In this document: positions 6,153 to 33,427 of the stretch, one piece after another
How the letters are laid out: each line of letters begins with the position of its first letter
How positions within the stretch are numbered: the first letter of the stretch is position 1
Assembly: GCA_016212295.1 (NCBI GenBank)
Contig: JACRGO010000136.1
Span: 1 to 33,427, forward strand
Length of the DNA stretch: 33,427 nucleotides
Direction: 5' to 3'
From: Nitrospinota bacterium
GTDB taxonomy: Bacteria; Nitrospinota; Nitrospinia; JACRGO01
Position numbers and translations under genes: made by a program
The notes under the pieces: generated by a model
Told to the model about the DNA's origin: nothing
Databases searched by the model: none
The model's input: the letters and a program-made list of their open reading frames with translations, nothing else

Positions 6153-7202
6153 ATGCTGAAACTATTCTGCCAGATTTGCGGCGAGCCGCTCAAGGTGGAC
6201 GAAAGCAGGCTTCCGGATTCCGACCGGATCAAAATACGATGTCCAGGCTGCGGGGGGACCTTTCTTTTTCACCTGTCGCCGGGAACGGAGGGAAAGGCAG
6301 GGGAGCCGGACTCCGTGGTGGGAGTGGTCAGGGACGAACTCTTTTCCCTGGACATTCCCGATTTTTGGAAGCTCCTTCAAAGCCAGGTCTTCTGGCTGAT
6401 CCTGATACTGGCCGGCATGCCAATGATCCTTAACATGCTGAACGTGGAAATAGTGCGCGGCATGACAATCTACTTTTCCGTGATCTGGTTCTTCGTCTTC
6501 ATAAAACTTTTTCAATACGAGGGTTCCAACTTCAAGCTCCACCTTGGGGTGTATTTTTTCTCCCTTATATCCCTTTCCCCCGCGTTCCTGTTGATCCATT
6601 CCCCGACCTCTCCCTTCTATTCCTTTATTTCTTCCGAAGGGGCGGTCTTGCGGTTCCTCGGCTTTTTCGCCGGCGTGGGGATAACGGAGGAGCTGACCAA
6701 GGCCGTTCCCATATTCCTTCTTGCCGCGTTTACCAGGCGAAAAAAAGAGCGGCTTTCCGGCATGGATTATCTCCTTTGCGGAATCATGTCCGGCCTGGCC
6801 TTCGCCGGAGTGGAAAATTTCGGGTACATACGCATGGCGGTCATCAGGGACGTATTTGGGGGATCAGTGGGGGACGGCGCGATCACCTCCCTTGCGCGCA
6901 GCACCCTGACTCCGTTCATACACTCGTGCCTTTCCGGGATCTTCGCCTATTTCATAGGACTGCCGACTTTTTATCCCTTGAAAAGCCCCTGGCCCTTTTT
7001 TATTTCCGGACTCCTCGTTTCCGCGTTTCTCCATGCCTTGTACGATTTCGCCGTCACCTTTCCCGTGTTCAATCAGATCCTGGCCTTCCTGGCCCTGGCC
7101 CTGATGTACATTGGACTTTTGATTTGCTGGTTGAATCTCAAGACCAAGTTCAGAAGGGCGCGAAGGGGGGAAATGGACGGTTATATAAAGGACATAATTT
7201 AG
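6153..7202 (+). CDS. PrsW-family intramembrane protease with N-terminal zinc ribbon
   Basis: A 349-residue protein. Residues 1-45 form an MJ0042-type zinc ribbon: CQIC at about 6-9 and CPGC at about 33-36. The rest is an integral membrane domain with about eight hydrophobic segments. It carries the PrsW motifs: GITEELTKAVP (paired Glu and Lys), GLAFAGVENFGYI, FIHSCLSGIF, and LHALYDFAVTF. These His and Glu residues match the proposed metal site of the PrsW/CAAX-protease relatives, which cut membrane-anchored anti-sigma factors or prenylated-type substrates. The zinc ribbon faces the cytoplasm by inference. The start has only weak Shine-Dalgarno support. No anti-sigma factor lies nearby, so the substrate is unknown. 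Confidence 0.82.
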   Translation: MLKLFCQICGEPLKVDESRLPDSDRIKIRCPGCGGTFLFHLSPGTEGKAGEPDSVVGVVRDELFSLDIPDFWKLLQSQVFWLILILAGMPMILNMLNVEIVRGMTIYFSVIWFFVFIKLFQYEGSNFKLHLGVYFFSLISLSPAFLLIHSPTSPFYSFISSEGAVLRFLGFFAGVGITEELTKAVPIFLLAAFTRRKKERLSGMDYLLCGIMSGLAFAGVENFGYIRMAVIRDVFGGSVGDGAITSLARSTLTPFIHSCLSGIFAYFIGLPTFYPLKSPWPFFISGLLVSAFLHALYDFAVTFPVFNQILAFLALALMYIGLLICWLNLKTKFRRARRGEMDGYIKDII

Positions 7203-7203
7203 T

Positions 7204-7229
7204 GCCTGAACGAAAACCCCCGTTCAGGC
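7204..7229. terminator. 9-bp stem hairpin after the PrsW gene
   Basis: GCCTGAACG (7204-7212) pairs perfectly with CGTTCAGGC (7221-7229) across an 8-base loop, two bases after the stop codon. The T-run usual for an intrinsic terminator is missing, so it may be a terminator or an mRNA-stabilising hairpin. Confidence 0.45.
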
Positions 7230-7286
7230 AAAATTCGAATATCGAATATCGAAATACGAAACAAATTCGAATGTCATAAGGCAAAA

Positions 7287-7424
7287 TCACCTGAACCAAA
7301 ACATTGGCAATATATTGAAGGCCGTTTCCACCCGATATCCCATAGCGTCCAAATGCTCCCTTAGCGCATAGCAAACGCTTTTGGGGTCATCCACCACCAG
7401 AATGTTTTCTTTTGTTTTTTCCAT
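7287..7424 (-). pseudogene. Receiver-domain fragment (CheY-like), truncated
   Basis: On the minus strand an ATG at 7424 opens 45 codons: MEKTKENILVVDDPKSV, then CYALREHLDAMGYRVETAF, and then a stop after NILPMFWFR. The first 37 residues are the start of a response-regulator receiver domain, with the acidic pair VVDD, helix 1 and strand 2. The fold stops before the phospho-Asp, so it cannot work. It lies downstream of the broken cheA and is the last remnant of the signalling cluster. The end coincides with the ATTCGAATATCG repeat at 7233-7275. Confidence 0.75.
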
Positions 7425-7439
7425 TGGCTGAATTTAATG

Positions 7440-7506
7440 GTCATTTGTCATTGGTCAATAGTCATTGATAAACAGGAAGACGGCCTAATGGCCAATGGCT
7501 AATGAC
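7440..7506. repeat. GTCATTGGTCAATAGTCATT palindromic repeat, copy 1
   Basis: GTCATTTGTCATTGGTCAAT is followed by its partial inverse, GGCCAATGGCTAATGAC. A second copy is at 16481-16532. It ends next to CTTCGCCCGAAGGGCGATAA, a small palindrome with relatives near 28263 and 31330. Confidence 0.65.
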
Positions 7507-7574
7507 TTCGCCCGAAGGGCGATAATTTAAATCTTAAATTTCAAATCTTAAATTTGAAATCCAAATGTCCCTTC

Positions 7575-8824
7575 TTACCGTTTCTCCTTCAGCAGCCCTT
7601 CAATCAGACGCTCCAACTTGACCACTTGCCCGTTGAAATTATAAAGCCCGTCCAGACTCTTATATCTGATTTCCCTTTCCTTCAAATCGATCACGGCTTC
7701 CACATTTTCAGTGGGGAAGGTGAAGAGTTCCCCGTCCACCCTGACCACCACCGCGTCCTTGGTCACAAGAGTAAGGGCCTGCGGGAGTTTCAGGGTCAGC
7801 CGCGTGCCCGCGCCGAAGGCGGACTCCAGGTCCAGGCGCCCATCGCATTTTTTCAGGTTATGCATGACCACGTCCATCTCCACCCCTCTGCCGGATATAT
7901 CCGTCACCTTCTCGGCCGTGGAAAATCCGGGCCGAAAGATGAGCTTTTGAATCTCTCCGTCCGCCATGGCCTCCGCTTCCGTTTCGGAAAGGATGCCTTT
8001 TTTCATGGCTGTTCTTTTTATTTTCCCGGTATCTATTCCCCTCCCGTCATCCTCTATGTATTATCCGCGCCCATTCCTTGTCAGCCGAAGCGGAGATGGA
8101 TATCCTGCCCTCCGCAGGTTTTCCAGCCTTGCTTCGTTCCCCGTCCGACGCCTCTATTCCATGGTCGATGGAATTTCTAAGTATGGGGACCAGGGGATCC
8201 TCGATCAACTCCACGAGGTTTTTATCCAGCAAGGTGTCTTCTCCCTTGATCTCCAGCCTTATCTGCTTTCCAGCCACCCCGGACACCTCCCTCACCAGGC
8301 GGGGAAATTTCTGAAAGATTTGCCTCAGCACACTCAAAAATAGTCCGCGCCTGCGGGTTGAAATCCCTGCCCTGGAAGACGCAGTCGAAGGAGACCCGCC
8401 TGGTTTTTTTCTTAACGGATATTTCCTTCAGGATGGAATCCATATTCCCGGCGATGGACCTCATAAGGGGGTGCCTGGAAATATCGATATCCGCCTCTTT
8501 CATGCTCTTGGCCAATTGCAGGAATTGATCGACAAGATTTTCTCCTTGCAATAAAAGGTCGCCCTCATCATCCACGCCTTTTCTCTTTTCCTTTATGGCG
8601 GAAAGGATGTTTTCCAATTTATGGGTCAGTTGCGCCACCGCGGCCAGCCCCAAAAAACCGGAACTCCCCTTGATGCTGTGGAAGACGCGGAACACGGAGT
8701 TCACAAGCTCCTCGTTGCCGGGGTCCTCTTCGAGCCTGACGAGGTCCCCCTCGGCGCGCCTTAGATTTTCCCTGCTTTCGTCAAGGAACTCTATCATGAC
8801 CTCCAGCGCCTGCTTTTCTTTCAT
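7575..8824 (-). pseudogene. cheA: cheA-like chemotaxis histidine kinase, two frameshifts
   Basis: Three minus-strand frames follow one another as parts of one CheA. 8824 to about 8340 encodes an Hpt (P1) domain with the phospho-His in FHSIKGSSGFLG. About 8340 to 8047 encodes the start of the ATPase domain (FPRLVREVSG, DPLVPILRNSIDHGIE). About 8046 to 7575 encodes the rest (EDDGRGID, then FRPGFSTAEKVTDISGRG) and a short CheW-like end. Removing one T from the TTTTT run near 8340 and one base near 8057 restores the frame. The usual P3 dimerisation helices seem absent, and the CheW-like domain is only about 65 residues. It is either a pseudogene or carries sequencing errors; the state of the neighbouring genes favours decay. 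Confidence 0.85.
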
Positions 8825-8891
8825 GGAATCACCCGCGAAAAAGCAAATCTGTTCAAGCCATCCGTACTACAAATCCATAAAATTTTGTTTT

Positions 8892-9341
8892 TTAGCAAAG
8901 TTTATGAAGCTCCAAATCACAATTGTCAAACCACAAATAAATCCCAATAACCAAAATTACAAAGAACAAAAACAAGGAAATGGAATCGTTTTGGACATAC
9001 CGCTTTGTTCCCAGCCTGGGTTTTTGAATGATGTCCACTGCCCCGTATTCCAGGGCGTGGAAGGCGGTCTCGGATCCGCTGTACGCCAGGCTTGAGCATA
9101 TAACCACTGGAATGGGATGCCGGGGCATGATCTTTTGCAAGAAGGTAAGCCCGTCCATGCGCGGCATCTCAACGTCAAGGGTGATCACGTCAGGGACCTC
9201 CTCCTTGATCCTGCTTGCCGCGATGTAAGGGTCGGCCGCGACGCCCATCACCTCTATCTCAGGCTCTGAGGAAAGGATTTTCTCCATGGTCTGCCGGACC
9301 ACGGCGGAATCGTCAACTATCAAGACGCGGATTTTTTTCAT
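8892..9341 (-). pseudogene. cheB: cheB truncated after the receiver domain
   Basis: The true start is ATG 9341, [17 protein letters not shown]. Residues 1-118 are the CheB receiver domain, with the phospho-Asp in [14 protein letters not shown] and Lys in DIIQKPRLG. The protein then leaves the family: the last 30 or so residues are encoded by a dispersed repeat (8912-8998), and the methylesterase domain with its Ser/His/Asp catalytic triad is missing altogether. CheB normally removes methyl groups from chemoreceptors, which this product could not do. It lies downstream of cheR, the usual order. A longer frame from 9413 would add a translation of the tandem repeat and is unlikely. Confidence 0.85.
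8912..8998. repeat. Dispersed 90-bp AT-rich repeat, copy 1 (breaks cheB)
   Basis: On the minus strand it reads ATGTCCAAAACGATTCC, then TTTGTAATTTTGGTTATTGG, then TTTGACAATTGTGATTTG. It matches 14718-14813 along most of its length. It replaces the 3' two thirds of cheB. Confidence 0.8.
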
Positions 9342-9351
9342 GGTTTTTTTG

Positions 9352-9447
9352 TTCAATTGGTTCAATTGGTTCAATTGGTTTAATTGGTTATTTAGAAAAA
9401 CCAACCCAACCAATTAAACCAACAAAACTAATCAAACTAATCAAACT
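9352..9447. repeat. 9-bp tandem repeat with an opposing arm
   Basis: Four 9-bp units of TTCAATTGG (the last TTTAATTGG) at 9352-9387. The complementary-type strings CCAATTAAACC and CTAATCAAACTAATCAAAC follow at about 9409-9447. It fills the cheR-cheB gap and could fold as a long AT-rich hairpin. Confidence 0.85.
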
Positions 9448-10258
9448 AAAATTTTTTACATATGGTCGGGGCGGCCATGGACATGGGGACGTCCAGGCTG
9501 CTCAAGGACTCTGAATGCCCTATAAAAAGATACCCTCCAGGCGCAAGACTCCGCCAGAACCTGTTGACAAGCTTTTCTTGCGTGTCCCTGTCGAAATAGA
9601 TTATGACATTCCTGCAAAAAATGATGTCCACTGATTCCCGCAACCCGTAATCCATGTCCATCAGATTCAGCCGGCGAAATTCCACCAAATACCTTAATTC
9701 AGGGGCAATGCGGACCAGTCCTCTTTTCGGGTCCTTGCTTTTCAGGAGGTATTTTTTCTTGAATTCCCACGGAACAGGCCCGGCCCTTTCCATTTCATAC
9801 ACCCCCGATTTCGCGGTTTCCAGGGCATGCCCGGACAGGTCGGTGGCCAGTATGGAGAAAAAAAAACCGCGATGCCTCTCCGCGAATTCGCTCAATACCA
9901 TGGCCAGGGTATAAGGTTCCTCTCCGGTGGAGCATCCAGCGCTCCATAGCCGGACCTTTTTTTTATTGTTCGCGGCCAACTCCGGCAGTGTTTTCTCAAA
10001 CAGATATTCAAAATGCATGGGTTCCCTGAAGAAATCCGTTTTATTGGTTGTCACCAGATCCACCATGGTGGACAATTCCGCCATGCCTTCCTTGAGGCTG
10101 AACACATAATCCCAGTGTTCCGAAAATGACCTCATGGACAATGCCCGCAACCTCTTTTGCAACCGCTATTCCAGCATCACCTTCTTGGCGGGCGGCATTC
10201 TTATGCCGCAACGGCCCTGGATGAATTCGCTGAAGAGCCTGAATTCCCCGCCGGACAT
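9446..10258 (-). pseudogene. cheR: cheR protein-glutamate methyltransferase with in-frame nonsense codon
   Basis: From ATG 10258 (MSGGEFRLFSEFIQGRCGI) the frame runs 30 codons, meets TAG at 10166-10168 in KKVMLE*RLQKRLRAL, and continues in the same frame to 9446. Both sides align naturally to CheR: the N-terminal helical domain, then the SAM site LWSAGCSTGEEPYTLAM and IIFCRNVIIYFDR. CheR methylates chemoreceptor glutamates using S-adenosylmethionine. Only the one TAG separates it from an intact 270-residue protein. A shorter product starting after the stop would lack the N-terminal receptor-binding domain. I see no sign of stop-codon recoding. Confidence 0.88.
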
Positions 10259-10340
10259 ACGGACCACTCCCTCTCCGTTTTTTTTCACGGTCCCCGGCGC
10301 GCTATGCAATTTCCCCAAGCTCCCTTAATAATGAGATACA

Positions 10341-10380
10341 GTTCAAGTTTAAAGTGACTAAAGTGCAGAGTGAACTAAAG
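10341..10380. repeat. Dispersed GTTTAAAGTGACTAAAG repeat, copy 2
   Basis: GTTCAAGTTTAAAGTGACTA followed by GAGTGAACTAAAG. It matches the copy at 4761-4800 and lies in the MCP-cheR gap. Confidence 0.6.
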
Positions 10381-10464
10381 TTGTGGTAGAAAGGCAATTT
10401 TTTGTTTTTAACTTTAGGCGCTTTTAATTTGGTTGCGGCGAAGCCGCGCCGTGTTCCATTAAAA

Positions 10465-11253
10465 TCAGAACTTCTCGAACTCGGCGTCCAGAGGATGGTG
10501 TTCATCCTCGCCTGAATCCAAGACAGCGCCAGCGGTTTTTTTCTCCAACACCCTGCCGGTCTTCTTGCCTTTTTGCCTTCCTGGATGCTCCCTTTCTCCG
10601 GCGGTCAAATGCGCTATATGGAGCTTGGGATGGGAAATCGCCTTATGCTCCATCTTTACCGGGGTCATGATCCTCCTGTCCTTCGCCTGCCCCGCCCCGT
10701 CGACCTTGAAGAAGGAGATGGAGTCCTTGAGTTGGACGGACTGAGCGGACAACTCCTCGGAGGTGGAGGCCATTTCCTCCGATGCCCCGGCGTTCTGCTG
10801 GGTCACTTGGCTCAACTGCTGAATGGCCTTATTGATCTGTTCCGCGCCTGTCGCCTGTTCGCTAGCGCCTTGGGAAATTTGCTCGGAACTGGAGCTCATC
10901 TGCTGCGCCCCTGACGCCACGTTGTCCGTCGCCTCTTTCACGGTCCCCACGATCTCCTTGAGCCTTGCGATATCCTTTTGCGCAAGGGCCTTATGCGGCT
11001 CAAACTCCTCCCTTGTCCTGCGCAAATTCCGGTTGATCACCGCGTCCGCTATCAAAGAGTATAACTCTGTCACACGGTCGGCGATATTTGATATTTCCAT
11101 GGCATCCTTTGCCCGCTTGGCGCCTTCATCCTGAAGATCAGCCAGGACGCGCAATTGAATGATCTGGTAAACAGAGGTCGACCCGAAGATCAGGACAACC
11201 GCCAGAAACCCCAAAATCAACTTGCTCCCTATTTTCCAATCAACAATTTTCAT
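10465..11253 (-). pseudogene. Methyl-accepting chemotaxis protein with internal deletions
   Basis: It starts at ATG 11253 with AGGAGGGG just upstream. One membrane helix lies at residues 11-32 (LILGFLAVVLIFG), followed by part of a four-helix-bundle sensor domain (RVTELYSLIADAVINRNLRR). At about residue 102 (RLKEIVGTVKEATDNVASGA) the rest of the sensor, the second membrane helix and HAMP are missing. At about residue 127 (ISQGASEQATGAEQINK) the descending arm of the signalling hairpin is joined directly to the ascending arm. The universally conserved tip that binds CheA and CheW (QTNLLALNAAIEAARAGE in the family) is absent. The frame stays open for 262 codons, but the protein cannot signal in the known way. 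The C-terminal 70 residues are hydrophilic and low in complexity. Confidence 0.85.
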
Positions 11254-11301
11254 GATTTTCCCCTCCTGAAAATAGTTATGTGTCATGTGTCATGAGTCAT
11301 G

Positions 11302-11380
11302 CGTGAATCGTGAATCGTGAATCGTGGATCGTAATTCGTGGATCGTAATTTGTAATTCGTGGATCGTCAATTGTCAATCC
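11302..11380. repeat. CGTGAATCGTGGATCG short tandem array, copy 1
   Basis: Degenerate 7-8 bp units (GTGAATC, GTGGATC, GTAATTC) repeated about nine times between cheW and the MCP gene. A second array is at 18746-18812. Confidence 0.8.
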
Positions 11381-11390
11381 AAAATCCCCG

Positions 11391-11866
11391 CTACTTTTCC
11401 TTCGCTTCCTCCAGACGCCTCTCTCCGCCGGTCTCCTGGACAAGGGCAAGTTCGTCAGAGGAGAAGATCTTGTCTACGTCCAATATGATGATGAACTGGT
11501 TGTCCCTCTTACCCATGCCCTTGATGAATTCCGTTTTGAGGCGGGCGCCGAAACTTCCCGGACCGAATCCGCCAAGGCGCCGAGGATGGTGGTTTCGCCG
11601 TCCAGGGACACCTCCACTATGATGATGCATGTATTCACGGACCTTTCCGTTTCCGACATCCCGAATTTAAGGCGCATGCCAACCACCGGGACCACGCTCC
11701 CCCGAAGGTTGATCACCCCCTTCATGAAATTCGGGGTGCGGGGCACCTTGGTGACCGCGGTGTAGTCCAGCACCTCGCGGACCTTGTCTATCTCCAAGGC
11801 GAATTCTTCCTCGTCCAGCTTGAAGGACAGATACTGCGTCGACTCGGTTAATGCTGTTTCGCTCAT
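11391..11866 (-). pseudogene. cheW: cheW with an out-of-frame internal deletion
   Basis: The start ATG 11866 has AAAGGAGGG upstream. Residues 1-107 are typical CheW (YLSFKLDEEEFALEIDKVRE, VINLRGSVVPVVGMRLKFGM, ALADSVREV). At about 11553 the family pattern continues only in another frame, as GARLKTEFIKGMGKRDNQF and ILDVDKIFSSDELALVQ, ending at 11391. About 12-15 residues normally between these blocks are missing, so this is a deletion of a length not divisible by three rather than a single-base error. CheW couples receptors to CheA; this product would be truncated. Confidence 0.85.
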
Positions 11867-11905
11867 GACAATCCCTCCTTTCTAAAAAGTTGAAAATTAT
11901 TTTTA

Positions 11906-12974
11906 TTAACCGCAGAGGCACGGAGGAAAATTCTTTAATTTCAATATATTTTTCTCCGCGTCCTTATAGACCTTTCCAAGGGATTTGATCACTGTCTGGC
12001 GCCCTCCCACGATTTCATCAACTACAAGACCCACCTTGCGCCCATCCTGATTGGTGATAACGATTTGCTCGATCTCCGGGGAATCGCCGTCCACCATGAA
12101 AAATTCCCTTAAATTTATATAAGGAATTATTTCCCCTCGCACCATTGCCACCCTGTGGCCATGAGACCGGGCCACGTCCCGGCGGGTCAACTCCACGCAT
12201 TCCTCCACGCTGGAAAGCGGCAGCACGAAATTGCCATTACTGATTTTCACCAGCAAGCCCTCGATGATGGCCAGGGTGAGGGGGAGTCGAAGGGTGATCT
12301 TCGTCCCCTCCCCTTTCCTGCTTTCTATATCAATAGCGCCGCGCAGGGAGTCAATGCCGCTCTTGACCACGTCTATCCCGGCCCCGTCGTCCTTGATTTC
12401 GATCAAAACCCTGGCGCCTGAATGGGCGGCGGAGAGTCGATGCTGTTTCGTATTAGGTGGACCAGGGGGTCATTGAGCCTTTCTATCATGTTCTTGTCCA
12501 ATTCAGTCTCCGCGCCCGAGGTTGACAGTTCCACCTCCTTTCCCAGGTCCCTGGAGAGGTCCCGGACCAGGCGTTTGAGTCTGCCGAAGGCGCCGCCGAT
12601 GGGGAGCATGCGGATGCTCATGGCGTTGTTCGCGCCGCCTCCCGTGGGAAGTCCTCTTCCTCGTTAATGGCGTCGATCCCCTTATCGGTTGTAAGGATAA
12701 CGTCCCAGAAGACGTAGCACGAGCCAGGGGCAAAATCCTCCAAGAAAGGGATTTTGTCCGTATGCGCCACTACCTTGCCGTCTCCCAGGTCCAGGAGCTC
12801 ATTCAAAAGGGACACGGGGTCCGAACCCTTATTTAAAATGTCCTCGAAGGGGCTGAAACGGATGCGGTAGGTGGCCTTGGGTCCGGCGGCAGTTGGAGGG
12901 GATGAGGATAGCGACTGTTTTGGAAGTCCTTCTTTTTTTTCTTTCTGGGCCCAGCCGGTTTGTTTTTTTAGCAA
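11906..12974 (-). pseudogene. cheA: Second cheA-like kinase, several internal deletions
   Basis: It is recoverable only in pieces. 12974-12618: the domain before P3 (RIRFSPFEDILNKGSDPVSL, KVVAHTDKIPFLEDF, SCYVFWDVILTTDKGID), after which P3 is missing. 12621-12403: RMLPIGGAFGRLKRLVRDL to DPLVHLIRNSID, after which HGIE and about 20 residues are missing with a frame change. 12406-11906: IEIKDDGAGID joined directly to VVKSGIDSLRGAIDIESR, omitting the ATP lid, then a full CheW-like P5 domain. The Hpt domain is absent. The 5' end abuts the terminal repeat of the 13003-13311 element. The 3' end (FPPCLCG) is translated from a dispersed repeat. Confidence 0.85.
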
Positions 12975-13002
12975 AGTTTTTTCCAGTTCCAGTTTAAGAA
13001 GC

Positions 13003-13311
13003 TGTCTTGAAAAAATGTTTATACTGAAGCGCGAATATGAGGCTTGAATAAGAAGCCCCTTAACACACCCCGGCCTTCGGCCACCCCTCTCAAGAGGGGA
13101 ATTTTTAAAGGAATAAATTTCTCAGTCACCGCTGGCATGATTTCCAGCGGCTTGCCACGAGTCATAGCCAGTTAATCCCAAAGTCGCTTGTTGAAAAGGC
13201 GCCATCATTTATAAATTCCCCTCTTGAGAGGGGTGGCCGAAGGCCGGGGTGTGTTAAGGATTTCTCCGGCACTTTGCAAGCAAGCCAAACCTTAATGTTT
13301 TTTTCAAGACA
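13003..13311. repeat. 309-bp nested palindromic element, copy A
   Basis: The outer ends TGTCTTGAAAAAA (from 13003) and TTTTTTCAAGACA (to 13311) are inverted. Inside, arms of about 46 bp at 13060-13106 and 13214-13259 are almost perfect inverted copies (CACACCCCGGCCTTCGGCC, then ACCCCTCTCAAGAGGGG). The centre (GTCACCGCTGGCATGATTTC) is less symmetrical. It has no coding content and is related to 15289-15574. Confidence 0.85.
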
Positions 13312-13319
13312 CTTCTAAA

Positions 13320-13345
13320 TTGACTAAAGTTTGAAATGAGCTAAA
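13320..13345. repeat. Dispersed TGACTAAAGTTT repeat, copy 3
   Basis: TTGACTAAAGTTTGAAATGA followed by GCTAAA, similar to 4761-4800 and 10341-10380. Confidence 0.5.
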
Positions 13346-13352
13346 ACCGCGT

Positions 13353-13634
13353 CTACAAGCAACCGGGGCCGCGATCCATGCCGCAGCCTTTTTGGCGCGC
13401 GAATCCGGCCTCGCGGACCGTTTTTGAGAATATTTCCGGTATGGCGCCGGTGATCTCCGCCTTTTTATTCCGGCTAAGCGACGTTTTGCAGGCCGAGCAA
13501 AGAAGTTGCAGGCAGGCAAGGTCCACCCCGGTCACCCTTTCCAGCCGGATGGCGACAGATTCTTCTTGCTCAATGGTTTTCAGGTTTATAAAACTTCCCT
13601 GTTCCCCTGATTTTGATTTTTGTATCTGTAAATT
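13353..13634 (-). pseudogene. STAS-domain protein lacking its start
   Basis: The minus-strand frame from 13634 (just after a stop at 13635-13637) to the stop at 13353 contains VAIRLERVTGVDLACLQLLC, then SACKTSLSRNKKAEI and EAGFARQKGCGMDRGPGCL. This is the second half of the STAS domain found in many chemotaxis gene clusters, where it binds or competes with signalling partners. The first 35-40 residues of the domain are gone, and no ATG, GTG or TTG precedes the conserved part in frame, apart from an internal GTG at 13535 that would give only 60 residues. The 5' half overlaps the end of the Cys-rich gene in another frame, suggesting a deletion that fused the two loci. Confidence 0.7.
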
Positions 13635-13798
13635 TCACATTCCTCGAAATGCCCCCCGCAATAATAAAGGACGATCCATGTCTTTAAGGTCGTGGTTTCC
13701 GCGCAGTAACAATCCTCAAAAGGATCCCGGGTGAAAGGACAAAATTTTTTCTTGCAGGTGTTTCCTTTCAATTCCGCTATTTTTTCCTTATTTTTCAT
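13586..13798 (-). CDS. Small cysteine-rich protein of the chemotaxis cluster, unknown
   Basis: A 70-residue protein from ATG 13798 (MKNKEKIAELKGNTCKKKFC). It has six cysteines: TCKKKFCPF, DCYCAE, YYCGGHFEECEIYR. Cys spacing C-x4-C, C-x-C and C-x6-C suggests a metal or iron-sulphur site. I do not recognise a named family. The position, upstream of a STAS gene in a che cluster, suggests a signalling accessory. A GTG start at 13813 is possible; neither start has a clear ribosome binding site. The last 14 residues (KNQNQGNREVL) run into the broken STAS region, so the true C-terminus may have been lost. Confidence 0.5.
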   Translation of the reverse strand: MKNKEKIAELKGNTCKKKFCPFTRDPFEDCYCAETTTLKTWIVLYYCGGHFEECEIYRYKNQNQGNREVL

Positions 13799-14038
13799 TC
13801 GATTTTTTTTCACGCAAGGCTTGCGTCTCCGCGGCGATAAAAATTTCAAATATCCTTGGATAGGATTCAGGAAAGGAAGCACGCAAATCCCGCGCCATGG
13901 TAAATATCAGGAAAAAAAAAGGAGGAGAAGAGGGAGACGTTTTGTTATTTAAGGGTTTTTAAACAGGACAGAAAAAGGAAGAGCCATCAAAGGCGTAGAA
14001 TTCCGCAATATGGGGATTTCCACAAAGTGGGGAAAAGG

Positions 14039-14711
14039 TCACTCTATTTCATATTTCCTGATTTTATTGTAAAGGGTCTTGCGGTCAATCCCAAGAATCC
14101 GCGCGGCCCCGGACTTGTTCCATGCGGCCTGTCTTATTTTTCACGGCGCCGGTGAGGGCCCCTCTTACATGCCCGAAAAGCTCGCTTTCCAATAAATCAT
14201 CCGAGAGGGCGGAGCAGGCCACCTTGGCCAACGGTCCCTTCTTTCTTTTTCCCCCGTGGTGCAGGGCCTCAGCCGCCAGTTCCTTGCCGGTGCCGCTGGG
14301 TCCGGTTATCAATACGGTGGTGTCCAGGGCCGCCAGTTGACCGATAAGGGAATAAACCTCCTGCATTCTCCTGTTTTTCCCTATCATCCTGTGGAATTTA
14401 TAGTTTTCTTCCGGTCCTTTTTCCAATTGGGACAGCCGGGTTTCATCCTTTATCACCAGGACGCAGCCGGAAAATCCGCCCCGGCGGTCGAGTAGGGGAT
14501 GGGACGCGATGTTAACCACTTTGGGAGAACAGTCCATAAGGTTGCACTCAAGGCGATATTTTTCCAGGGGCTGCTCCCTATTTATTGTTTCCCGGAGTAT
14601 GTCAATGCAGACCTTGGCGCATGGAGAAGAGAGGAGTTGGAAGGATTTCCCTATGGAATCCAGCCGGGAAAAGCCGCAGATATGGCTTGCCGCTTCATTC
14701 ATTTCCACCAC
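14039..14711 (-). pseudogene. PAS/sigma-54 activator lacking most of its AAA+ domain
   Basis: Residues 1-95 are the second half of a PAS domain (AASHICGFSRLDSIGKSF). Next is the beginning of a sigma-54 activator ATPase: Walker A in LITGPSGTGKELAAEAL, and SELFGHVRGALTGAVK, an altered form of the GAFTGA loop. At about 14120 the frame is lost (KNKTGRMEQVRG, stop at 14085). The next frame continues AAWNKSGAARILGIDRKTLY and NKIRKYEIE, a Fis-type helix-turn-helix C-terminus ending at 14039. Walker B, sensor and arginine-finger regions, about 150-200 residues, are absent, so it cannot hydrolyse ATP. Its 5' end abuts the same 90-bp repeat that truncates cheB. Confidence 0.8.
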
Positions 14712-14717
14712 TACTTA

Positions 14718-14813
14718 ATGTCCCAAAACAATCCCATTTCCTTGAGCCACGTTTGTTCTTTGTAATTTTAGTTATTGGGATTTATTTGTTATTTGACAAT
14801 TGAGATTTGAAAT
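14718..14813. repeat. Dispersed 90-bp AT-rich repeat, copy 2
   Basis: It begins ATGTCCCAAAACAATCCCAT and continues TTTGTAATTTTAGTTATTGG and TTTGACAATTGAGATTTG. It is the direct counterpart of the 8912-8998 copy, read on the opposite strand. The gene-side boundary (ATGTCC end) is the same at both sites. Confidence 0.8.
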
Positions 14814-14841
14814 TTTTTTAGTACGTCCTAAGGGCATTGAT

Positions 14842-15272
14842 TTAATTTGGCCGCGGCGGCGCTATGGCAGGCAGTTCCACCACAACCCTTGTAAACTCTC
14901 CTTCCTTGCTCTCCACCTTTATTTCTCCGCCATGCTCCGCAATGATGTCAGCGCAGATGCTTAAACCTATCCCGGTTTCCCCCCCAAATTTCTTCATAAG
15001 CCGGGCTGATGTAGAGCATTTCACCAGTGTCCTGCGACCTTATCCAGAACGCCTCCCGGATATTTTCGACAAGTTGGCGGAATCGTTCTTCGCTGTTCGC
15101 AAGGGCGGCCGCGGCCTTCTTCCTTGCGGCCGGCCTTTTCGCAACTGGCCTTTTTGCCTGTCCCTCGCGAAGCCCGGTTTTTTCCGTTGAGTTTTTTTCA
15201 TTTTTTTGTAATAGCTCACAGGACGAGGCGCCATGGAAAACGATGCCAAAATCGATTACAGAGGATTTGCTT
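14842..15272 (-). pseudogene. PAS-domain histidine kinase, core deleted
   Basis: One frame reads ANSEERFRQLVENIREAFW and SQDTGEMLYISPAYEEIWG, a PAS sensor domain, and stops soon after. The next frame gives ETGIGLSICADIIAEHGGEI and KVESKEG, the last part of a kinase ATPase domain, ending at 14842. The phospho-His helices, N-box and G1 box between them (about 150-200 residues) are missing. No start codon in the PAS frame is visible between the TAA at about 15275 and the PAS domain; an ATG near 15210 lies in another frame. The N-terminal linker is Lys/Ala-rich (KRPVAKRPAARKKAAAALA). Confidence 0.75.
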
Positions 15273-15288
15273 TAATTCCTCCTTAACT

Positions 15289-15574
15289 ATAAGAAGCCCC
15301 TTAACACACCCCGGCCTTCGGCCACCCCTCTCAAGAGGGGAATTTTTCAGAGGAAAAAATTTCAGTCGCCAGCGGTATAATTTTCAACGGATTACCCGAT
15401 ACCTTTGGGTTCCCCGTGGCTTGCCAGGATGCCTTGTCCCTTTATCCACTGTTGAGAGGACAGGCCATCATCAAATTCCCCTCTTGAGAGGGGTGGCCGA
15501 AGGCCGGGGTGTGTTAAGGATTTCCGTGGCTGCTTGCAAGCCGACAGACAGTGGTGCTTTTTTAAAGACAACTT
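15289..15574. repeat. Nested palindromic element, copy B
   Basis: Arms at 15301-15346 and 15473-15518 repeat those of copy A (CACACCCCGGCCTTCGGCC...CCTCTCAAGAGGGG and inverse). Flanking similarity also extends left (AAGAAGCCCC) and right (GCTTGCAAGC). The outer ends are less clearly inverted than in copy A. It lies between trmB and the broken PAS kinase. Confidence 0.8.
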
Positions 15575-15609
15575 CCAGCAACTGGCCTTTCCACGGTTTT
15601 TCATGACAA

Positions 15610-16137
15610 TCAAACGGCTTCGAATAGCAGGTAATAAATCCGGATTCCCTGGGTGAGGTATTTCTTCTCGTATTTGGTGGGGACGCGTCCTTCGATCCGG
15701 CTGAAAAAATTCATGCGTCCGGCCACATTCCGGAAGGAACCGTGGGCCTCGAAATAGCACAGCATCTCTCCGGCATAATCCGCAATGTCCGTGGCCAGAG
15801 CGACCCTGCCTCCTGGCGCCAGGCTCTTGTGGATGAGGTCAACCACCGGGGGCTTTATCAATCGCCTTTTCCTGTGCCTTCTCTTGGGCCAGGGATCCGG
15901 GAAGTTTATAAAAAATTCCGAAACCTTGCCGGGCAGGGATGGGATGATCTCCTTTGCGTCCCCGCAAATGATCTGGATGTTCCTGGTCCCGAAGGTCTCC
16001 ACCTTGTGGAGCAGTTTCTTGATTCCAGGACGGTATATTTCGATTCCGATGAAATCGCATTCAGGCTCGTTCCGCGCCATCTCAATCAAGAAATCACCGG
16101 AGCCGAATCCGATTTCCACCTTTAAAGGTCTTACCAT
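15610..16137 (-). CDS. trmB: tRNA (guanine-46-N7)-methyltransferase
   Basis: A 175-residue protein with the TrmB signature in order: VEIGFGSGDFLIEMAR (SAM-binding), FIGIEIYRPGIKKLL, FFINFPDPWPKRRHRKRRL, LATDIADYAGEM and TKYEKKYLTQG. It methylates N7 of G46 in the variable loop of tRNAs using S-adenosylmethionine. It is shorter than the common 205-240 residues because the basic N-terminal extension is absent; all catalytic parts are present. The ATG at 16137 overlaps the stop codon of the upstream ferredoxin-like gene by 7 bases (ATGGTAA), which indicates translational coupling and supports this start. Confidence 0.93.
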   Translation of the reverse strand: MVRPLKVEIGFGSGDFLIEMARNEPECDFIGIEIYRPGIKKLLHKVETFGTRNIQIICGDAKEIIPSLPGKVSEFFINFPDPWPKRRHRKRRLIKPPVVDLIHKSLAPGGRVALATDIADYAGEMLCYFEAHGSFRNVAGRMNFFSRIEGRVPTKYEKKYLTQGIRIYYLLFEAV

Positions 16138-29861: not shown

Positions 29862-29890
29862 AGATTAAAGTATTACTATTTGTTTGTCAA
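29862..29890 (-). promoter_or_regulatory. Promoter of the riboswitch-cbtB operon
   Basis: TTGACA (29890-29885), a 17-bp spacer and TAATCT (29867-29862) on the minus strand. Transcription would begin close to the first base of the riboswitch. Confidence 0.7.
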
Positions 29891-29985
29891 GTTGCAATCT
29901 TTATGCGGTTATTTTAAAAAAAGGGAAAACCATTCACGACTATATAGGGTTTTTGCCAAAACCGGATATTCCTATTGAAGATGTT

Positions 29986-30294
29986 ATGCTCCAGACAAAA
30001 GATAACATAATCTTAACAATCCAAAGAAATCAAAATCAGATTAGGGGATTCGGAGTTAAAAGACTTGGCCTATTTGGTTCTTTTGTCCGGGAAGAACAAA
30101 ATTCTGAAAGTGATATTGATTTATTAGTTGAATTTGAACCGGGCAAAAAGACTTTTGATAACTTAATGCGCCTTTATTTTGTTTTAAAAGAATTATTTAA
30201 CCAGCCCATTGAATTAGTAACCACTGAATCTCTCAGCCCATATATAAAACCATACATTATAAGTGAGGTTGAATATGCCGATATCACCCCTTGA
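29986..30294 (+). CDS. mntA: MNT-type nucleotidyltransferase antitoxin
   Basis: A 102-residue protein, start ATG 29986 (MLQTKDNIILTIQRNQ) preferred to the unsupported frame from 29884. RLGLFGSFVREEQNSESDID is the minimal nucleotidyltransferase motif (GS..., SDIDLLVEF), with the two catalytic Asp. MntA adenylylates the HEPN toxin beside it and so neutralises it. The toxin gene starts inside the end of this one (20-base overlap). This region is AT-rich compared with its neighbours, suggesting horizontal transfer. Confidence 0.85.
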   Translation: MLQTKDNIILTIQRNQNQIRGFGVKRLGLFGSFVREEQNSESDIDLLVEFEPGKKTFDNLMRLYFVLKELFNQPIELVTTESLSPYIKPYIISEVEYADITP

Positions 30295-30628
30295 ATATTT
30301 ACGGCATATTTTAGATGAAACAAAATATATCATTCCTCATGCTAAAAAGTTGGACAAACATTTATTTAAAAAAGACGAGACATTGAAGAGAGCATTTGTC
30401 CGTTGCCTGGAAATCATTGGAGAGGCTACAAAAAAAGTTCCGTCTGATTTTAAAAGTAAATATCCAAATATTGAATGGAAAGAAATGGCGGGTATGAGAG
30501 ATTTATTGATACATAATTATTTTGGCATAGACTACGACATTGTATGGGATGTTGTTGCTAATAAGATACCTGAACTCCAAGAGAAAATCGAAGAAATTTT
30601 CGGAAATGAATCGAAAGGGGCTAAGTAA
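30275..30628 (+). CDS. hepT: HEPN-domain toxin (HepT)
   Basis: A 117-residue protein from ATG 30275 (MPISPLEYLRHIL). The signature GMRDLLIHNYFGIDYDIVW contains the HEPN ribonuclease motif R-x4-6-H (R...HNY). The overlapping MNT gene and this order define the type VII HEPN-MNT system, in which the MNT protein adenylylates the toxin Tyr. The motif is complete. An alternative start at 30263 adds four residues; the Shine-Dalgarno GAGG at about 30265-30268 fits the internal ATG. Confidence 0.88.
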   Translation: MPISPLEYLRHILDETKYIIPHAKKLDKHLFKKDETLKRAFVRCLEIIGEATKKVPSDFKSKYPNIEWKEMAGMRDLLIHNYFGIDYDIVWDVVANKIPELQEKIEEIFGNESKGAK

Positions 30629-31377: not shown

Positions 31378-33427
31378 ATGTTTTCGCAAATAAAAAGATT
31401 GCCCTTGCTTGCCGCTCTCATGCTTTATGCCGTGTCCGCGTCAGCCGAAGATCGTTATACACTCGATGACCTGATAAAGATGGCGGTGGAGAAGAATCCT
31501 TCGGTTGCAATCTTCAGGGCAAATGTCGAGGCCCGAAAGGGAGTGGTTGTCTCTTCAAGGGCCTATCCAAACCCTGAATTGGGTATCGAGGCTGGAAGGG
31601 GCCGCTCCCTTGACGGCCCTGATTCAGGGGGAGAGTATTCGATAAGCATCGGCCAGCCGATTGAGAGGCCGGCAAAAAGGCATTTCCGCGAGAAGGCCGC
31701 CGAGACCGGGGTCCTATCGTCGGAGAAAGAAAAAGAAGGCTATCTGCTGCTGCTCCGCTCTGATGTAAAGAAGGGGTTTTACCGGTTGCTTTATGACAAG
31801 AGGGCTGTGAAGGCCGCCGGGGAGAACATCGGCATCATGGATGGCCTCTTAAAGACCGCCGAGGTCAGGGTAAAGGCCGGAGAAGCGCCTGAGTTCGAGC
31901 TGGTAAAGGCCCGTGTTGAAAAATTGAGGGTTGATAAAGAGTTAAAGCGGGCGGAGAGCAGGGTCATCACCTCTAAAGCCGCTTTAAATGTCCTCTTCGG
32001 CAACACCCTGCCTGAAAACTTCGATATAGAGGGGGACTTTTTCATGCCGGAAAAGAGATTTGATCTTCAATCCCTTCTGGCAAATGCCGTGGAAAAGCAT
32101 CCTCGTATGCTCAAGGCGAGGAGGGAGGCGGAGGCAAAGGGTTACACCCTCAAGATGGAAGAGGCGTCTGTCTTCCCTGGCATCACACTGAAAGGCTTCG
32201 CAGGCAGGGAACTGGGCAGGGAATGGTATGGAATCGGCCAGGTATTGATATACCCTGACCGCTTGCGAAAATACGACCTTTCCCTTAAAGAAGTCTTTGA
32301 TGCTGTGGCAAGCAACAATGCCAACGCAGGCGGGAACATCATAGAACATGCTTCGGAGCAGTATATAGTCCGTGGAGTCGGTCTCATCAAATCCATCCAG
32401 GATATAGGCGACATCGTTGTCAAGGAGCACGGAGGAACTCCCGTCTTTGTCAAGGACGTGGCCGATGTAAAATTTGGTCCTGATACGAGGCAGGGGGCTG
32501 TTGTAAAAGACGGAAAGGGTGAGGCTGTCGCCGGTATCGTGATGATGATTAAGGGAGGGAACAGCAAAGAGATAGTGGCAGGGGTCAAGGCCAGAGTGGA
32601 TGAGATCAACAGAAGCAACATCCTGCCGGAGGGGTTAAAGATAAAACCATTCTATGACAGGACAGACCTTGTGGAGAAGTGCATCGAGACAGTGACAAAG
32701 GCACTGGAGGAAGGGGCCATCCTTGTTGTGGTGATCCTATACCTCTTTCTGCGAAACTTCAGGGGCGCCCTTGTTGTGGCCCTTACGCTTCCGCTGGCGG
32801 TCCTCTCAACATTCATAATAATGTGGAAGACAGGGCTTTCCGCAAACCTCATGTCCCTTGGCGGTCTTGCCATATCCCTTGGAATGGTAGTTGATGCGGC
32901 AATCATCCAGGTGGAAAATGTCCAGAGACATCTTTCGGAAAGGGGGGCAGAAGAACACAGGCTGCCTGTTATTTTAGAGTCCATTCTTGAAGTTAGGAAA
33001 CCCTCCCTTTTCGGGGAGTTGATCATCGCCATAACATTCATCCCTATCATGACCCTTCAGGGTATGGAGGGGAAGATGTTTGCGCCTCTGGCATTTACAG
33101 TGGTCATTGCCCTTTTTTCATCGCTGATACTTTCCATATTTGTGATACCCGTCCTTTGCTCCTTCATCATGAAGGGCGGGGAAGAGAAGGAAAGTCCGAT
33201 AATCCACTGGCTGAAGATACCGTATATCCCGGTGCTGATATGGGCAATAGGGCGACCCAAGGTAATCACGGCCATTGCCGCAGGACTGCTGGCAGGGAGC
33301 CTGGCCCTCTTCCCTTTCCTTGGGACTGAGTTTATACCCACGCTGGATGAAGGTTCCCTGACCACGCAGGTGATCAGGCTTCCGAGCATCAACCTGACAG
33401 AATCTGTGGAGATAGAGAAGAAGATGC
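31378..33427 (+). CDS. TolC-like N-terminus joined in frame to CusA/CzcA RND pump; right end open
   Basis: ATG 31378 follows AAGGAGG and opens an uninterrupted frame of 683 codons to the window edge. Residues 1-22 are a signal peptide (MFSQIKRLPLLAALMLY...SASA). Residues 25-285 are a TolC-family outer-membrane factor (YTLDDLIKMAVEKNP; YPNPELGIEAGRGRS; GYTLKMEEASVFPGITLKG). At about residue 288, GREWYGIGQVLIYPDRLRKY, the frame enters a heavy-metal RND pump: QGAVVKDGKGEAVAGIVMM, NLMSLGGLAISLGMVVDAAI (proton-relay Asp) and TLQGMEGKMFAPLA. The second half of TolC, a membrane-fusion-protein gene and the first 150-200 residues of the pump are missing. A signal-peptide-led chimera could not build a normal tripartite CusCBA or CzcCBA pump. 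I regard it as the product of a deletion of about 2-3 kb. Confidence 0.85.
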   Translation, partial: MFSQIKRLPLLAALMLYAVSASAEDRYTLDDLIKMAVEKNPSVAIFRANVEARKGVVVSSRAYPNPELGIEAGRGRSLDGPDSGGEYSISIGQPIERPAKRHFREKAAETGVLSSEKEKEGYLLLLRSDVKKGFYRLLYDKRAVKAAGENIGIMDGLLKTAEVRVKAGEAPEFELVKARVEKLRVDKELKRAESRVITSKAALNVLFGNTLPENFDIEGDFFMPEKRFDLQSLLANAVEKHPRMLKARREAEAKGYTLKMEEASVFPGITLKGFAGRELGREWYGIGQVLIYPDRLRKYDLSLKEVFDAVASNNANAGGNIIEHASEQYIVRGVGLIKSIQDIGDIVVKEHGGTPVFVKDVADVKFGPDTRQGAVVKDGKGEAVAGIVMMIKGGNSKEIVAGVKARVDEINRSNILPEGLKIKPFYDRTDLVEKCIETVTKALEEGAILVVVILYLFLRNFRGALVVALTLPLAVLSTFIIMWKTGLSANLMSLGGLAISLGMVVDAAIIQVENVQRHLSERGAEEHRLPVILESILEVRKPSLFGELIIAITFIPIMTLQGMEGKMFAPLAFTVVIALFSSLILSIFVIPVLCSFIMKGGEEKESPIIHWLKIPYIPVLIWAIGRPKVITAIAAGLLAGSLALFPFLGTEFIPTLDEGSLTTQVIRLPSINLTESVEIEKKM

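Follow-up and report, generated by a model that had tools for sequence, protein, structure and literature searches.

Piecewise decay of a probable accessory chemosensory operon in a Nitrospinota bacterium

An 8.4-kb block of chemosensory genes in a draft genome of a Nitrospinota bacterium (GenBank assembly GCA_016212295.1) consists of ten damaged gene remnants. We analysed the whole of contig JACRGO010000136.1 (33,427 nt, hereafter the window), which is contig C90 of this draft genome, G000 (3.74 Mb, 237 contigs, 90.5% complete). The block very probably represents a formerly complete accessory chemosensory operon that was recently inactivated and is being removed by deletions, while other chemosensory systems remain in the genome. 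The operon would once have comprised a receptor, CheW, two CheA kinases, CheR, CheB, a STAS protein and a receiver, with a PAS kinase and a sigma-54 activator as neighbours, and would have worked as one system.

Lesions across the chemosensory block

The block occupies positions 7203-15609 on the minus strand, from stop codon to stop codon, between convergent genes whose stops lie at 7202 (prsW) and 15610 (trmB). Such a block with intact neighbours had been described in a first-pass annotation made from the letters of the window alone. The block is real and both neighbours are whole, although its limits had to be corrected to those given here. The ten broken genes of that annotation were all recovered, in the order and on the strand named, by three-frame translation, Pfam scans of frames read through stop codons and tblastn with intact paralogues, except that cheR proved to be of full length apart from one nonsense codon and that the gene for the methyl-accepting chemotaxis protein (MCP) is still an open frame (Table 1). 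The order in the direction of transcription is PAS histidine kinase, sigma-54 activator, a small Cys-rich open reading frame (ORF), STAS, cheA-2, cheW, MCP, cheR, cheB, cheA-1 and receiver, with the core genes cheA, cheW, MCP, cheR and cheB all in one strand-consistent cluster.

Lesions were gauged against intact paralogues from the same genome or from the sister genome G001, the sole other genome of the genus compared. Over ~1,980 readable codons we counted a single clear in-frame nonsense codon and a single frameshift of 1 nt, as against ~16 truncations or internal deletions, a tally that is approximate because there is no orthologue to compare. Disabling lesions were detected in the core genes by Pfam scans and tblastn. 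cheA-1 retains its Hpt part (8803-8399) and two sections of the ATPase region, one at 8328-8089 and the remainder, in another frame, at 8057-7590; between the retained parts it has lost ~150 aa including the dimerisation region, the C-terminal ~60-80 aa are gone as well, and the 1-nt frameshift lies near 8057-8089. cheA-2 is without its N-terminal Hpt, its dimerisation region and its last residues, and two pieces have gone from its ATPase domain. The cheR sequence was aligned by tblastn up to the end of an intact paralogue, and its nonsense codon is the sole clear lesion. The MCP remnant is a single open frame of 273 codons from which the TM2/HAMP part and the signalling tip have gone through apparently in-frame deletions; the signalling tip is the part of an MCP that contacts CheA and CheW. 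In the sigma-54 activator gene the start of the PAS part is gone and ~180 aa of the AAA+ core have been deleted with a change of frame at 14115-14137, and the Fis helix is retained. The end of the STAS remnant may conceal a second nonsense codon. We also considered functional mini-proteins, which were rejected: CheA, CheB and the sigma-54 activator are without their catalytic cores, and their frames are broken.

Table 1. Gene remnants, flanking genes and repeats in and around the decayed block
Feature	Positions	Strand	Evidence
Receiver-domain remnant, cut after ~41 codons	7300-7424	-	Frame reading
cheA-1 pseudogene	7577-8824	-	Hpt (52.6 bits) and HATPase (30.5 bits) in different frames (Pfam); tblastn chain
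cheB pseudogene, receiver alone, methylesterase domain missing	9012-9341	-	Response_reg, 85.2 bits; no PF01339 match in the contig
cheR, full length, one in-frame TAG at codon 31	9449-10258	-	PF01739, 204.9 bits; self match with one TAG
MCP remnant	10465-11286	-	blastp against full-length MCPs of the same genome
cheW pseudogene, ~10-13 codons gone, frameshift near 11552-11561	11415-11866	-	CheW, 94.2 bits, positions 1-93; tblastn
cheA-2 pseudogene, three frames	11942-12974	-	Three-frame translation, Pfam, tblastn
STAS-domain remnant, N-terminal part gone	13353-13589	-	PF13466, 19.9 bits, positions 28-79 of 80
Small Cys-rich ORF, 70 aa, apparently undamaged	13589-13798	-	Three-frame translation
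Sigma-54 activator pseudogene	14036-14711	-	Sigma54_activat positions 1-94 of 168 and HTH_8 in another frame; tblastn
PAS histidine-kinase pseudogene, PAS start joined to ATPase-domain end, middle gone	14850-15190	-	PAS_8 and HATPase_c positions 69-109, different frames
prsW, PrsW-family protease, intact left boundary	6153-7202	+	PF13367, 81.9 bits; 70% aa identity to G001 through the stop codon
trmB, intact right boundary	15610-16137	-	PF02390, 165.6 bits; 76% identity to G001 through the stop codon
Repeat E2 at truncated cheB end	8913-8998		Inverted-repeat search; inverted copy at 14718-14809
Repeat E2, second copy (inverted), at sigma-54 activator start	14718-14809		Inverted-repeat search
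MITE-like inverted-repeat element, 47-nt core arms, beside missing cheA-2 5' end	13048-13281		Repeat search
Second MITE-like element	15289-15541		Repeat search

Age of the decay and comparison with relatives

The damage had been described in the first-pass annotation as seemingly recent and due to internal loss, and codon usage, family scores and the small number of point changes bear this out. Codon adaptation of the remnants was 0.752, compared to a median of 0.744 in 328 intact genes, and their G+C content at third codon positions was 0.674, compared to 0.656. One nonsense codon in the readable codons corresponds to ~28-34 point substitutions in ~5,950 sites (~0.5%), with an upper 95% limit of ~130-160 substitutions, or at most ~2.2-2.7%, under four mutation models. 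The bit score of the CheR domain lies inside the range of 188-217 of intact CheR in the same genome. Because codon usage is host-like, one nonsense codon was found and the CheR score is that of an intact gene, constraint was lost recently, and the decay is dominated by loss of sequence. The damage is also concentrated. A paralogue-based scan of ~968 kb of the genome turned up few persuasive frameshift loci. Of the clearest among them, three lie inside the block, so that the concentration of damage there is well above the genome background; the scan is crude, and most of its apparent stops and deletions were terminal stops or domain differences, which were left out of the counts.

In G001, prsW and trmB directly adjoin, their stop codons overlapping by 4 nt, and the entire block is absent. 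The order of HD-GYP regulator, prsW, trmB, ferredoxin-like gene and kinase matches that in the window, giving synteny on both sides. Since prsW and trmB abut in G001, the whole 8.4-kb block is a difference between lineages. Other families were examined to polarise gain against loss, and none outside the genus had conserved prsW-trmB synteny. The sister lacks the cluster at a conserved site where the stop codons overlap, which would also fit a cluster that was acquired horizontally rather than long resident, never worked well in its host and is being purged, and no orthologue was found in 77 genomes of the class. Loss in the sister accounts equally well for the absence, however, and the host-type codon usage gives no indication of a recent foreign origin. 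Horizontal acquisition is a possible but doubtful alternative, and it differs from our explanation of an inactivated accessory operon in origin only.

Some points weigh against that explanation. Two genomes of the genus cannot separate gain in this lineage from loss in the sister, and the junctions are those of the draft assembly. The comparison with the che clusters of relatives that had been suggested at the first pass could be made in part: the block is missing from G001, and a search through CheR for an intact orthologous cluster in the class (the same 77 genomes) and the phylum gave best matches of 37-44% identity, with none above 44%. The searches thus gave no close intact orthologue of the cluster, of the kind from which exact breakpoints and the ratio of nonsynonymous to synonymous substitution rates (dN/dS) could be computed.

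Repeats, deletion junctions and the draft assembly

If the remnants were an artefact of assembly or consensus, the genes would be intact in the organism and the draft would have dropped internal pieces of them. The draft is in 237 contigs and rich in repeats, and many contig ends carry an arm of the miniature inverted-repeat transposable element (MITE)-like element, which probably fragments the assembly. In contrast, the flanking genes and most of the sampled genome are intact, and the codon and composition profile of the block is host-like. The internal junctions showed no long repeat, their homology overlaps being ~22 nt or less. Nowhere else in the assembly do the domains lost from CheB and CheA occur as orphan fragments; the missing CheB piece was not misplaced on another contig, because all five CheB methylesterase domains of the assembly lie in long uninterrupted frames. 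Together, these observations make an artefact very unlikely.

Repeats lie beside several of the lesions. Repeat E2 (86-92 nt) was hit 48 times by blast in 0.97 Mb of the genome, and nearly all of these hits lie outside called genes. The MITE arm is matched 132 times in the genome (~66 elements) and 11 times in G003, another genome of the class, but never in the sister. Deletion between short repeats, which the first-pass annotation had proposed, is a plausible cause of the decay, and the evidence from the junctions is divided. At the sigma-54 activator junction we found a homology overlap of 22 nt, which is unusual, as ~2% of simulated random deletions do as well. The CheW junction, in contrast, is indistinguishable from chance, 18% of simulated deletions reaching 10 nt. 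In our explanation, function would have been lost recently in this lineage and the operon removed piecewise by deletions. Short repeats may have given rise to these deletions by recombination or slippage, as may events at intergenic repeats.

The che block is not the only site of deletion-rich decay. Another damaged cheA, on contig C83 (1-1817, locus L157), has lost ~50 codons and changes frame near position 272, close to the site at which cheA-2 of the window is damaged. At 31378-33425 of the window, an in-frame fusion joins an outer-membrane efflux gene (OEP) to an RND transporter gene whose frame exits the contig end. The RND part begins at about profile position 185, the first ~185 residues being gone, as though deletion had taken the end of the OEP gene and the start of the RND gene, together with any adaptor gene.

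Damage at these two loci, along with the sigma-54 overlap, would be expected of a deletion-prone lineage, in which deletions between short direct repeats, more frequent than usual throughout the genome, would drive the decay. The genome is also smaller than that of the sister (3.7 compared to 5.6 Mb), although both sizes are affected by completeness and contamination. The CheW overlap does not go beyond chance, however, and coding density is not much lower than in the sister (0.785 compared to 0.806). Two MutS homologues were found in the genome, and missing mismatch repair was rejected as the cause of the deletions. We regard a deletion-prone lineage as unlikely, although not remotely so; it concerns the cause of the deletions and is compatible with the inactivation of an accessory operon.

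Remaining chemosensory genes and known cases of operon loss

The first-pass annotation had raised the possibility of a loss of motility signalling, which the rest of the genome does not support. fliG is intact elsewhere, as are several CheR and CheW and the five CheB methylesterase domains, and eight of the nine CheA dimerisation domains lie in uninterrupted frames of at least 580 aa, the ninth being at a contig end. What has been lost is one redundant, lineage-variable chemosensory system, and its loss would have been tolerated because other chemosensory systems remain. A decay that was not neutral, in which the deletions removing the MCP tip, the CheA dimerisation and ATPase parts, the CheB esterase and the AAA+ core were favoured, is extremely doubtful; it supposes that array proteins left half-working would poison the cell's several other chemosensory arrays. 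On contig C124 (4150-4917), a CheW domain was matched as two halves ~340 nt apart within one open frame, possibly because of an insertion.

Accessory chemosensory systems are already known to be gained and lost. In Shewanella oneidensis MR-1, che2 is one of several chemosensory clusters and has been inactivated, while other systems are functional (PMC9855816). As in the present case, a cluster with CheA, CheW, CheR, CheB, MCPs and an anti-sigma-factor antagonist was inactivated and others were retained, but the damage to che2 consists of two insertion-sequence insertions rather than ~16 deletions or truncations over ten genes. The Flag-2 loci of Enterobacterales are likewise accessory, encode motility functions and are kept by some lineages but lost from others, and direct repeats have been reported where the deletions end (PMC6993521). 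Their loss is typically one en bloc deletion that spares only the outermost genes, in contrast to the many small losses inside genes observed here. Pseudogenes of Salmonella enterica are, like these remnants, young, lineage-specific and dominated by deletions (PMC2916853), whereas here most genes are without a large part and a single clear nonsense codon is present; this comparison is rough, as it is made across species and deletions remove the point mutations that preceded them.

The block is a good example of a known process, ordinary gene decay, and shows operon loss with unusual clarity at an intermediate point, with recognisable ends and normal codons in nearly every gene, the middle or an end gone and few point mutations. 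More genomes of the genus could allow the rates of deletion and substitution to be measured in a decaying operon.

Two further features of the window were recorded. The small Cys-rich ORF of the block, which has no clear relative in the sampled contigs of the genome, carries the motif CPFTRDPFEDCYC. At 29884-30628, adjacent nucleotidyltransferase (MNT-like) and HepT-like genes are likely to form a toxin-antitoxin pair.
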